A DNA stretch of 64,000 nt from Neoaquamicrobium sediminum. GTDB lineage: Bacteria > Pseudomonadota > Alphaproteobacteria > Rhizobiales > Rhizobiaceae. The notes under the pieces were generated by a model. It was given only the letters and a program-made list of their open reading frames with translations, searched no databases and was not told the origin of the DNA. Positions 12,077-33,476 of this stretch are shown in pieces. Position numbers and translations under genes: made by a program. Positions within the stretch are counted from its first letter, which is position 1; every line of letters starts with the position of its first letter. The DNA lies in contig NZ_JABETK010000001.1 of the NCBI RefSeq assembly GCF_013240295.1, positions 1,984,001 through 2,048,000 of the forward strand, in the 5' to 3' direction.

Positions 12077-12102
12077 ACCCAGGTTCAATCACCAGATAAT
12101 AA

Positions 12103-12128
12103 AAATGGCGGGCCGAGGCCCGCCATTT
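12103..12128. terminator. Bidirectional intrinsic terminator between doeD and rpsP
   Basis: An 11-bp perfect stem, AAATGGCGGGC paired with GCCCGCCATTT, closed by a CGAG tetraloop, 26 bases after the doeD stop and 26 bases before the rpsP stop. A and T runs flank both sides, so it can terminate both convergent units. Confidence 0.85.
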
Positions 12129-12153
12129 GCTTATGCAGCAGTGAAAACCGCGA

Positions 12154-12582
12154 TCAGGAAGCGGCTTCTTCCGAAGCTGCTTCCTCGGCCGGAGCGGCGG
12201 CGGCTTCGGCAGCAGCAGCGGCCTCTTCCGCGGCCTTTGCGGCGGCGGCTTCCTCTGCCTGCTTGGCGGCTGCGACGCGCTCCTGCGCCTTCTTGCCGGG
12301 CTGCGCCTTGGTCGGGTTGTTGCGTGCGTCGCGCTTGGCGAGGCCGGCTTCGTCAAGGAAGCGGGCGACGCGGTCGGTCGGCAGCGCGCCGTTGGCGAGC
12401 CAATGCTTGATGCGCTCCTCGTTGAGCTTCACGCGCTCGCCGTCCTTGGGCAGCATCGGATTCCAGGAACCGATCTGCTCGATGAAACGGCCGTCGCGGG
12501 GCGAGCGGACGTCGGCAACGACGACGTGGTAGTAAGGGCGCTTCTTGGAGCCCGCGCGGGCAAGACGGATTTTCAGTGCCAT
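12154..12582 (-). CDS. rpsP: 30S ribosomal protein S16
   Basis: 142 residues. Residues 1-85 are the conserved S16 core ([20 protein letters not shown], then [12 protein letters not shown]). Residues from about 95 form a low-complexity Ala/Glu tail. Such C-terminal extensions are common in rhizobial S16. The gene follows chorismate mutase and ffh on the same strand. In related genomes rimM, trmD and rplS normally follow directly; here a terminator and the ectoine genes do, so the usual ribosomal block is interrupted. Confidence 0.95.
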
Positions 12583-12623: not shown

Positions 12624-12944
12624 TCAGGTTTCGGCATCCGCACCGGAGGCGATCGCCTCGTGGTGGCGGATGACCTCGCGGATGACGAAGTTCAGGAACT
12701 TCTCCGCGAAATCGGGGTCGAGGTTTGCATCGTGAGCAAGCTGACGAAGGCGCGCGATCTGCTGGCTCTCGCGCGCAGGGTCGGCCGGCGGCAGGTCGTG
12801 CTTCGCCTTGAGAACGCCGACCGCCTTGGTGCAGCGAAACCGCTCGGCAAGCATGTGGATCAGCGCCGCATCGATGTTGTCGATCGAGGCGCGGTATTCG
12901 GCAAGCTGCGCGCGGGCCGCGTCCATGGGTGTCGCGTCGTTCAT
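12624..12944 (-). CDS. AroQ-type chorismate mutase
   Basis: 106 residues, an all-helical monofunctional AroQ chorismate mutase, which converts chorismate to prephenate for phenylalanine and tyrosine synthesis. Visible are the N-terminal arginine region ([22 protein letters not shown]), the K-AVGVLKA segment and the C-terminal helix [14 protein letters not shown]. It lies between ffh (stop 7 bases before its ATG) and rpsP, the usual arrangement in Rhizobiales, and is probably cotranscribed with them. Confidence 0.9.
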
Positions 12945-12951
12945 CCTCGCC

Positions 12952-14523
12952 TCACTTCTTCTTGCCGCCGGGCAGCCCTGGAAGCTTCATGCCGCCTGGA
13001 AGGCCCGGCAGCCCTCCACCCGGCAGGCCGGGCAGACCGCCCGGCAGACCTTTCGGCATGCCGCCACCAAGACCGGCGGCTTCCGCCTGCTTCTGCAGCG
13101 CTTCGAGCTGCTTGGGGTCCATCTTCGACAGGTCGGGCATGCCGCCGCCCGGCATCATGCCGCCGAGGCCCATCTTGTTGGCCATGCCGCCCATCAGGCC
13201 GCGCATCATTCCGCCGCCCTTACCCTTGCCGCCCATGGCCTTCATCATGTCGGCCATCTGGCGGTGCATTTTCAGAAGCTTGTTGATCTGCGCCGCGTCG
13301 GTGCCCGAGCCGGCCGCGATGCGCTTCTTGCGCGAATGCTTGAGCAGGTCGGGATTGGCGCGCTCGGCTTTCGTCATCGACTGGATGATGGCGATCTGGC
13401 GGCCGAACATCTTGTCGTCGAGGCCCGCGGCGGCGATCTGGTCCTTCATTTTGCCCATGCCGGGCATCATGCCCATGATGCCGCCCATACCGCCCATCTT
13501 CTGCATCTGGCGGAGCTGGTCCGCGAGGTCGTTCAGGTCGAACTTGCCCGACTGCATCTTCTTCGCCATCGCCGCGGCCTTTTCCGCGTCGATGGTTTCG
13601 GCTGCCTTCTCGACGAGCGAGACGATGTCGCCCATGCCGAGGATGCGGTCGGCGATGCGCTTGGGGTGGAACTCCTCCAGCGCATCCATCTTTTCGCCGG
13701 TGCCGATGAGCTTGACCGGCTTGCCGGTCACCGCGCGCATCGACAGCGCTGCGCCGCCGCGGCCGTCGCCGTCCATGCGGGTCAGCACGAGGCCGGTGAC
13801 GCCGACTCGCTCGTCGAAATTGCGGGCGAGGTTGACGGCGTCCTGACCGGTCAGCGAGTCGGCGACCAGCAGAATTTCGTGCGGGTTCGAGACCTTGCGG
13901 ATATCCGCCATCTCGACCATCAGCGGCTCGTCGATATGCGTGCGGCCGGCGGTGTCGAGGATGACCACGTCGTGGCCGCCGAGCTTGCCCGCCTGCACGG
14001 CGCGGCGCGAGATGTCGACGGGGGTCTGGCCGGCGATGATGGGCAGCGTGGCAACGCCCGTCTGCTCTCCGATCTGGCGAAGCTGTTCCTGCGCGGCGGG
14101 GCGGCGCGTGTCGAGCGACGCCATCAGGACCTTCTTGCCCTGGCGCTCGGTCAGCCGCTTGGCGATCTTGCCGGTGGTGGTGGTCTTGCCCGAGCCCTGC
14201 AGGCCGACCATCATGATGACGACCGGGGCGGGCGCGTTGAGGTCGATGGTCGCGCCTTCGGCGCCGAGCATCTCGACGAGTTCGTCGTGGACGATCTTGA
14301 CGACCATCTGGCCGGGCTTGATCGACTTCAGCACCTCGGCGCCGACGGCCTTCTCGCGCACCTTGTCGACGAAGGAGCGGACGACCTCGAGCGCGACGTC
14401 GGCCTCGATCAGCGCACGACGCACCTCGCGCAGCGCTGCCGAGACATCGGCCTCCGACAGCGCGCCGCGGCCGGTGAGGCCGTTCAATATCGAACCGAGT
14501 CTTTCCTGTAGGCTCTCAAACAT
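12952..14523 (-). CDS. ffh: Signal recognition particle protein Ffh
   Basis: 523 residues from ATG 14523 (MFESLQERLGSILNGLTGRG); an upstream in-frame methionine lies before the ribosome-binding site and is not used. N domain about 1-90, then the G domain with P-loop GLQGSGKTTT, DTAGR and TRMDGD motifs. The methionine-rich M domain binds SRP RNA (MGGMGGIMGMMPGMGKMK, later RGLMGGMANKMG). The end is a long glycine/proline/leucine-rich tail of repeated GLPG units followed by KKK. Ffh targets nascent membrane proteins to FtsY and the translocon. Confidence 0.96.
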   Translation of the reverse strand: MFESLQERLGSILNGLTGRGALSEADVSAALREVRRALIEADVALEVVRSFVDKVREKAVGAEVLKSIKPGQMVVKIVHDELVEMLGAEGATIDLNAPAPVVIMMVGLQGSGKTTTTGKIAKRLTERQGKKVLMASLDTRRPAAQEQLRQIGEQTGVATLPIIAGQTPVDISRRAVQAGKLGGHDVVILDTAGRTHIDEPLMVEMADIRKVSNPHEILLVADSLTGQDAVNLARNFDERVGVTGLVLTRMDGDGRGGAALSMRAVTGKPVKLIGTGEKMDALEEFHPKRIADRILGMGDIVSLVEKAAETIDAEKAAAMAKKMQSGKFDLNDLADQLRQMQKMGGMGGIMGMMPGMGKMKDQIAAAGLDDKMFGRQIAIIQSMTKAERANPDLLKHSRKKRIAAGSGTDAAQINKLLKMHRQMADMMKAMGGKGKGGGMMRGLMGGMANKMGLGGMMPGGGMPDLSKMDPKQLEALQKQAEAAGLGGGMPKGLPGGLPGLPGGGLPGLPGGMKLPGLPGGKKK

Positions 14524-14604
14524 CCGCTTTTCCCGTTCCCTGACTTTTTCGTTCGCCAGAGAGGTAGTGCCTGTGCTTCGACATGCCAAACGCCAAAACC
14601 GAAA

Positions 14605-14714
14605 AGCACCCGGGGGCGCATCGCGCTGCCGGGTGTTGACCTCCGGGATCAGCCTGCTTTGAGCAGGTTTCGCCCCGGTCGGCGGCTCGGAGTTGTCACT
14701 CGTCGCTGATTTCA
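14605..14714 (-). ncRNA. Candidate small structured RNA upstream of ffh
   Basis: The roughly 300-base gap between ffh and the SH3 gene is not empty. Read on the minus strand it shows a promoter-like TTGACT-N17-TCTAGA, then a 5-bp hairpin (14704-14717), a CCGGG...CCCGG stem enclosing CCTGCT-CAA-AGCAGG, and a final GC-rich hairpin followed by a T-rich tail. This three-hairpin layout of about 110 nt is what a trans-acting sRNA, or an attenuated ffh leader, would look like. It lacks the GGAAGCAGCC-type core of SRP RNA. No Rfam family is recognised. Confidence 0.35.
14607..14635 (-). terminator. Terminator-like hairpin 84 bases upstream of ffh
   Basis: CACCCGG (14607-14613) pairs with CCGGGTG (14629-14635), with an inner GCGC/GCGC helix around a three-base loop. 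On the minus strand it is followed by CTTTTCGGTTTTGG. It would end the candidate small RNA or attenuate ffh transcription. Confidence 0.5.
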
Positions 14715-14720
14715 GCGCGC

Positions 14721-14749
14721 TCTAGACAGGAAAAGTGCTTCGGAGTCAA
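14721..14749 (-). promoter_or_regulatory. Sigma-70-like promoter upstream of the candidate sRNA/ffh
   Basis: On the minus strand TTGACT (plus 14744-14749), 17 bases, then TCTAGA (plus 14721-14726). This resembles the rhizobial housekeeping consensus CTTGAC-N17-CTATAT; the base before TTGACT is also C. It lies downstream of the SH3-gene terminator, so it would serve the sRNA and/or ffh. Confidence 0.45.
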
Positions 14750-14771
14750 GGAGAATGCCTTGAAACGGGAA

Positions 14772-14802
14772 GGGCCGCCTGCTTTCGCAAAGCGGGCGGC
14801 CC
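14772..14802 (-). terminator. Intrinsic terminator of the SH3/DUF1236 gene
   Basis: A 14-bp stem (one T-G wobble) with a CGC loop, 5' arm GGGCCGCCTGCTTT and 3' arm AAAGCGGGCGGCCC, 26 bases beyond the stop at 14828. It is the strongest hairpin seen in the window. Confidence 0.75.
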
Positions 14803-33395: not shown

Positions 33396-33443
33396 GTCAG
33401 GCATGCTGGAGTTCCGCCAGCGGCGCCTGGGCGTATGCCCGAC
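33396..33443 (+). ncRNA. Candidate ybhL leader RNA upstream of the BAX-inhibitor gene
   Basis: In the 204-base gap before the BAX-inhibitor gene, GTC-A-GGCAT (33396-33404) pairs with ATGCC-C-GAC (33435-33443). Inside is a CTGG-N7-CCAG hairpin (33406-33420). A structured ybhL leader of unknown function is described upstream of ybhL homologues in Rhizobiales, and the gene here is such a homologue. I match it by position and a paired stem, not by a covariance model. Confidence 0.4.
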
Positions 33444-33476
33444 ACCCGACGGAACATGAGCAGAAAAGAGGAAATT

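Follow-up and report, generated by a model that had tools for sequence, protein, structure and literature searches.

The alphaproteobacterial ffh RNA as a very probable leader of the rpsP-containing operon, with bS16 as its putative ligand

The "ffh motif" of 2009 was reportedly described by Meyer et al., the S. meliloti RNA sm5 is said to have been predicted by Valverde et al. in 2008, and SmelC778 is said to have been listed by Schlueter et al. in 2010. In PMC2704228 (2009), the ffh motif is a single hairpin whose bulge contains two conserved cytosines. It was located 5' of ffh in SAR11, in the then-sequenced Rhodobacterales, Sphingomonadales and Rhizobiales, and in marine metagenomes, and is given there as absent from Rhodospirillales and Caulobacterales. 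Regulation of ffh was suggested with caution in that paper, the main text of which contains 0 occurrences of "rpsP" or "S16". In S. meliloti, sm5 was predicted between dapF and ffh (dapF< Sm5> ffh>) and gave a microarray signal (PMC2573895, 2008); Sm5 is listed with a sigma70-type promoter and a predicted length of 108–258 nt (PMC2573895/PMC2873474), and SmelC778 as sequenced at 115 nt and of the type "trans-encoded" (PMC2873474, 2010). The RNA-seq data of Bartonella bacilliformis include an "ffH leader RNA" (PMC7717549), and the Rfam family RF01793, which we read as the ffh motif of PMC2704228, is named in an M. huakuii survey. Among leaders of ribosomal-protein genes, one found in Flavobacteria lies 5' of rpsP, usually also of rimM, and bS16 is its proposed ligand (PMC7247131). 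For E. coli, a 2024 review on bS16 states that there is no information on the regulation of the trmD operon (rpsP-rimM-trmD-rplS) and that this operon is a rare such case among ribosomal-protein operons (PMC10931766). No link of the RF01793 RNA to rpsP was found in one open-access library, as judged mostly from listings.

The window analyzed here is the whole stretch of 64,000 nucleotides from Neoaquamicrobium sediminum. Its ffh region contains the following features, listed in the direction of transcription.

14772..14802, minus strand: terminator-like hairpin of the upstream SH3/DUF1236 gene (-24.5 kcal/mol, z -3.78)
14744..14749, minus strand: -35 hexamer TTGACT, from the sequence and the TTGAC conserved in related loci
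14721..14726, minus strand: -10 hexamer TCTAGA after a 17-nt spacer, followed by a G+C-rich discriminator, from the sequence
14595..14712, minus strand: predicted leader RNA of about 111–118 nt, inferred from promoter and hairpin (5' end about 14712, 3' end 14602-14595)
14685..14706, minus strand: weak 5' hairpin P1, from the MFE fold alone
14639..14683, minus strand: middle hairpin P2, a CCGGG/CCCGG helix with a variable loop (fold, z -1.80)
14607..14635, minus strand: terminal hairpin P3 (fold, z -3.14; covariation)
14599..14650, minus strand: match to Rfam RF01793, ffh (65.8 bits, gathering threshold 35, E 2.5e-10)
14593..14606, minus strand: U-rich tail, including another U tract from about 10 nt past the stem (positional composition, 198 loci)
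12952..14523, minus strand: ffh (Pfam SRP54_N, SRP54, SRP_SPB)
12624..12944, minus strand: chorismate mutase type II gene (PF01817)
12154..12582, minus strand: rpsP (bS16), the last gene of the ffh unit (PF00886, E 3e-27)
12098..12127, minus strand: intrinsic-terminator-like hairpin 3' of rpsP (G+C-rich inverted repeat and U run, by eye)

The initial annotation had proposed a promoter TTGACT-N17-TCTAGA on the minus strand, some 110 nt ahead of ffh that form three hairpins, the last with a T-rich tail, and an upstream SH3 gene with its own terminator. The hexamers are present at 14749-14744 and 14726-14721, the RNA folds as described, and the hairpin of the SH3 gene lies at 14802-14772. The statement that there is no SRP RNA core also stands: RF00169 has no match at the gathering threshold in the window, nor up to E 1 in the leader stretch, and the SRP RNA of this genome is encoded elsewhere (G000:C1:1124039-1124136). 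The description as unannotated does not hold, given the Rfam match at 14599-14650, the 2009 ffh motif and Sm5. The RNA is thus a known one, and what is new is its probable assignment as the leader of the bS16 operon, the tie to ffh appearing secondary.

P3 is composed of 7 bp, a C-C mismatch (14628/14614), an A-C apposition (14627/14615) designated as the X-Y position, 4 bp, and a 3-nt loop. P3 clearly beats its shuffles (z -3.14), while the whole leader and P2 do so modestly (z -1.99 and -1.80); the 125-nt leader fold has an MFE of -52 kcal/mol, and 7 of 200 shuffles were as good. The scan for terminator-like hairpins by itself is close to chance, with 4 in a 4-kb stretch against 3.1 expected. 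The window promoter has no entry in the promoter scan, with 8 of 12 consensus matches at a scan threshold of 9. Elsewhere in the window, a ybhL leader (RF00520) is found at 33398-33459 on the plus strand (58.9 bits).

For comparison, 202 RF01793 matches were taken up and 198 loci were used (G369, G382, G432 and G482 were left out), 130 from the order of the window's genome and 68 from other orders. The 130 come from 130 of the 183 matching genomes and were chosen from among the matches listed, some of which were omitted. Enough flank for a diversity-filtered alignment was available in 197/198 loci, and the resulting alignment A1 includes 88 diverse loci (44 of the own order), from 120 of the 131 sequences past the diversity filter. 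A regular-expression hunt for P3 missed 75/199 loci, and Rfam coordinates were used instead. The related loci were gathered with models of the P3 hairpin, and the set is therefore biased towards that hairpin.

The promoter reading in the window is supported by this comparison. TTGAC is found 55–125 nt 5' of P3 in 182/196 loci, against 5/196 further upstream and 9/196 on the other strand. When 183 loci are aligned on TTGAC, the -10 hexamer starts with T in 74% and has A as its second base in 77%, the window itself having TC, and the G+C fraction is 0.85 in the discriminator, 0.65 in the spacer and 0.61 over whole loci.

P3 is well supported by the comparison. Its outer pairing is C(A/G)CCCG-N...N'-CGGG(U/C)G in the 198 loci, and its inner stem has four pairs, mostly GCG(A/C)/(U/G)CGC, closed by a short loop. 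The C-C mismatch is kept in 197/198 loci, and the X-Y position is A-C in 156/198, with standard pairs in 33 of the remaining 42. Double-sided changes occur at 11 of 12 P3 pairs in 88 sequences: 157 double-sided cells were counted against 43 in shuffled alignments, none of 500 shuffles was as high, and slid controls collapse. The X-Y position lacks a standard pair in 74 of the 88 sequences, which counts against the reading as an rpsP leader.

P2 is less sure than P3. Complementarity within loci exceeds that of permuted partners in each of two groups (0/2000 permutations), but only 16/129 and 12/68 loci beat 95% of foreign partners, and the RNAalifold consensus of 131 sequences contains P3 and not P2. 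An earlier test, in which the 4 nt beside P3 were forced to pair, gave means of 13.9 and 13.4 against shuffled means of 11.4 and 9.3; 0/20 shuffles attained the observed mean, and no such helix was present in 16/129 and 9/68 loci.

In the 198 loci, positions +5 to +8 past P3 are rich in U, and UU(U)G is conserved at +12 to +15, numbering from the outer stem of 4 bp. As the pairing extends two more positions, UU(U)G has its final U 11–12 nt past the stem. Some loci have a poor U tract, with AAAA after the stem, and this too counts against an rpsP leader. Inspection of the listed loci by eye revealed no mutually exclusive conserved antiterminator.

RF01793 matches 183/199 genomes of the own order and 75/289 genomes drawn from the class. 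The model R1, built from the related loci, matches 174/289 class genomes. In a draw from the phylum, R1 matched 71/299 genomes, all from the own family, order or class; among the matches listed, we infer that the draw consisted of 86 class genomes (71 matched) and 213 other Pseudomonadota without a match. These wide searches pass through filters that lose weak matches. Caulobacter vibrioides has no RF01793 match. Two R1 matches each were observed in G205, G214, G275, G277, G427 and G434.

The gene most constantly associated with the element is rpsP, found downstream on the same contig and strand in 157/160 genomes examined, usually with ffh in between. Of the first 80 genomes, 79 had an rpsP match, in every case downstream of the element; of the second 80, 79 had such a match, and in 78 it was downstream. 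The second set included 76 R1-matched genomes without an RF01793 match and 4 others; it took up the R1 genomes with a listed position and two others, and the remaining R1 genomes were omitted. Among the three misses, G369 has the element at a contig end and rpsP on another contig, and in G441, which gave no rpsP match, 756 nt separate the element from a contig end. The third, G426 (97% complete), likewise gave no rpsP match anywhere in the genome; its element (contig C222, locus L164) is 23 nt 5' of ffh, and the contig continues for about 25 kb. In G426, rpsP could be missing or diverged, or the genome could be a real exception; one assembly without a detectable rpsP fits either reading, and the balance between the readings is therefore unchanged. 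G276 and G396 carry a second rpsP on another contig and one R1 match each, which counts against an rpsP leader. In genomes of family f74, acetyltransferase-like reading frames were seen by eye between ffh and rpsP (L236 2326-5495 and L241 2667-4326, the latter counted on the reversed strand).

The ffh gene is 3' of the element in 130/130 loci of the own order and 63/68 other loci, 193/198 together. Two of the five remaining loci run to the edge of their contig, where a start resembling that of ffh can be made out by eye, and three, from family f101, have rpsP instead. These counts, the two contig ends included, as well as G426 with its ffh and no rpsP match, favor a leader that controls the signal recognition particle, with Ffh binding its own mRNA. 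This explanation is nevertheless the least probable of those considered, because the element stays before rpsP where Ffh and SRP RNA are not found, as in the f101 genomes, and where ffh is on another contig, as in G478. G478 (0.9 Mb, 99% complete) has ffh at the edge of that other contig, its upstream region being outside the assembly, while the element with an intact P3 precedes rpsP-rimM-trmD-rplS.

The three f101 genomes (G466, G371 and G247) are OCS116/PS1-type marine genomes, 95–97% complete, in which the element is directly 5' of rpsP, 53–58 nt ahead of the S16 domain match (3/3). Ffh was not found in any of the three, whereas the Ffh model matched 9/12 genomes of the same search. SRP RNA was likewise not found in the three, with matches in 4/7 genomes of the same search, one of them below the cut-off. 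They also lack the weaker second Ffh-model match shown by other genomes, which is taken for FtsY. The SRP pathway has apparently been lost in these genomes (loci L154/L240/L247 in G466, L169/L239/L245 in G371, L174/L235/L248 in G247). Among named genomes of OCS116/PS1 and relatives, rpsP is 3' of the element in 12/13 pattern matches, and the thirteenth lies in a gammaproteobacterial MAG with no operon genes in the locus. No Ffh match was found in the small alphaproteobacterial genomes G252 (1.7 Mb) and G215 (0.6 Mb, 88% complete), and G266 (0.9 Mb) has an Ffh match of 19 bits only. No open-access literature joining the PS1 clade with the signal recognition particle was found. The element loci draw attention to marine Alphaproteobacteria that gave no match to Ffh or to SRP RNA.

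Because the element outlives ffh, SRP-specific regulation was rejected as the main reading. The initial annotation had suggested an attenuator for SRP protein synthesis; the structured RNA, its own promoter, its terminator-like end and a role as leader or attenuator are retained, and the assignment to SRP is not, in view of rpsP downstream in 157/160 genomes and of the element kept without Ffh.

The distance from the element to the predicted ffh start is 8–687 nt in 193 loci, at most 30 nt in 26 of them and more than 200 nt in 22. The longest gaps include four loci of family f31 (L020, L025, L030 and L048), with 459–687 nt between element and ffh and short repeats in L025. The wide gaps, the own promoter with a terminator-like tail, and the discrete 115-nt RNA of S. 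meliloti agree with an independent trans-acting small RNA, the type recorded in Rfam, that is upstream of ffh by chance. We consider this unlikely, given the rpsP downstream in 157/160 genomes and the 26/193 loci with at most 30 nt to the start codon, where a second promoter hardly fits. In those 26 loci, transcripts from the conserved promoter have to cross P3 before reaching ffh, which makes the element a leader there. With the position of the element fixed, as near as 8 nt from the predicted ffh start, a role in cis is indicated, and the element very probably acts in cis, as the leader RNA of the operon that contains rpsP.

In other lineages, ffh is often followed by rpsP-rimM-trmD-rplS. 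In the window, the order is ffh, chorismate mutase and rpsP, after which come the strong hairpin resembling a terminator and a reading frame in convergent orientation; rimM, trmD and rplS were not found within the 64 kb. Nor were the three found in the 3–4 kb past rpsP in 9/13 relatives from the family, all three being present in 4/13. The usually conserved operon is broken in the window (12098-12582, minus strand) and in L257-L260, L262-L265 and L268, which have rpsP without rimM, trmD or rplS nearby. The PS1-type loci L244, L249, L250 and L253 have trmD 3' of rpsP and no rimM match.

Across these lineages, rpsP alone remains downstream of the element throughout. According to PMC7247131, every known leader of this type has the product of a regulated gene as its ligand, and a single regulated ribosomal-protein gene indicates the likely ligand; the same source cautions against relying on the nearest gene where several such genes are regulated. 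With rpsP as the sole constant gene, the rule for a single gene makes bS16 the first candidate, and we regard it as a putative ligand with a chance somewhat short of even. A leader that instead senses bL19, TrmD or RimM, other products of the long operon, would agree with the position of rimM, trmD and rplS 3' of rpsP in many of the loci followed further downstream, and bL19 could still act in trans. Such a leader is hardly more probable than a trans-acting RNA: the element is intact in the window and the 9/13 family relatives where none of the three genes was found after rpsP, and the ligand would be expected from a regulated gene (PMC7247131). A comparison of P3 with E. coli 16S and 23S rRNA gave no credible match (best E 0.4 with R1); a loose P3 motif scan had 0 hits in 16S and 2 in 23S against a shuffled mean of 0.63 (30 shuffles, joined). 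No mimicry of the rRNA site of bS16, a trait of some r-leaders though no requirement, was therefore found in E. coli rRNA. RF02541 detected no 23S in the window's assembly.

The proposed mechanism is as follows. The conserved promoter with its G+C-rich discriminator would drive the leader of the rpsP operon, and P2 and P3 would form in the nascent RNA. P3, with the conserved C-C mismatch beside an A-C or standard pair, may be the recognition hairpin. A U located 11–12 nt after the stem is the geometry of a hairpin pause or a weak terminator, and the last U of UU(U)G at this distance from P3 could serve as such. Free bS16 would bind P3 and increase pausing or termination, an excess of bS16 would lower the output of its own operon, and the RNA of about 115 nt would be the terminated leader product. 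The gap of 8–687 nt to the ffh start makes masking of one ribosome site unlikely as the common mode, and its variability, with at most 30 nt in 26/193 loci, suits transcriptional control more than translational control. An action of the leader on transcription is thereby slightly favored. Pausing or early termination fits a promoter-proximal hairpin with U tracts and the 115 nt of the S. meliloti RNA against the 111–118 nt predicted here.

The same spacing to the last U, and the discriminator G+C of 0.85 against 0.65 in the spacer, are also what a ligand-free, promoter-proximal pause or terminator would show, read by RNA polymerase and Nus factors and coupling the operon to growth rate. G+C-rich discriminators mark stringently controlled promoters. 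Such a pause is the strongest of the alternatives while still rather unlikely; the near-invariant C-C mismatch and the GCG/CGC core are unexplained by a pause alone.

The structure, the promoter, the position and the linkage to rpsP are established by comparison among loci. As a structured and conserved 5' leader of a ribosomal-protein operon, the element is a candidate member of the class of r-leaders, its co-transcription with rpsP being read from gene order. Taken whole, the best explanation is a leader of the rpsP operon that would sense bS16 and act by pausing or early termination, which we hold to be reasonably probable. Control may be shared by ffh, the first gene in most genomes. More tentatively, the "ffh sRNA" of Alphaproteobacteria may be an autogenous bS16 sensor of the trmD/rpsP operon, in which bS16 would recognize the C-C-mismatch hairpin of the nascent leader and halt transcription, a single valve for SRP and ribosomal protein output that has outlived the apparent loss of SRP in the OCS116/PS1 clade. 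Present in 174/289 sampled alphaproteobacterial genomes, the element is a candidate for control of the trmD operon, and the rpsP-leader reading, if true, corrects the label of the Rfam family RF01793.

Among known systems, the model for this type of control is the E. coli S10 leader, where the ribosomal protein L4 brings about attenuation by acting on a hairpin of its own leader at which transcription pauses or terminates; no sequence relation is claimed. The Flavobacteria leader belongs to another phylum and is likened by gene position and proposed ligand. Sm5/SmelC778 corresponds by place and size, with the same location, a sigma70-type promoter and 115 nt; it differs in having been classed as a trans-encoded small RNA, which counts against the cis-leader reading. 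The ffh motif is likewise a bulged hairpin with two cytosines located 5' of ffh in Alphaproteobacteria. In contrast to its description in PMC2704228, the element analyzed here is tied to rpsP, even where ffh is absent, and is recognized by R1 in 174/289 class genomes against 75/289 by the Rfam model.
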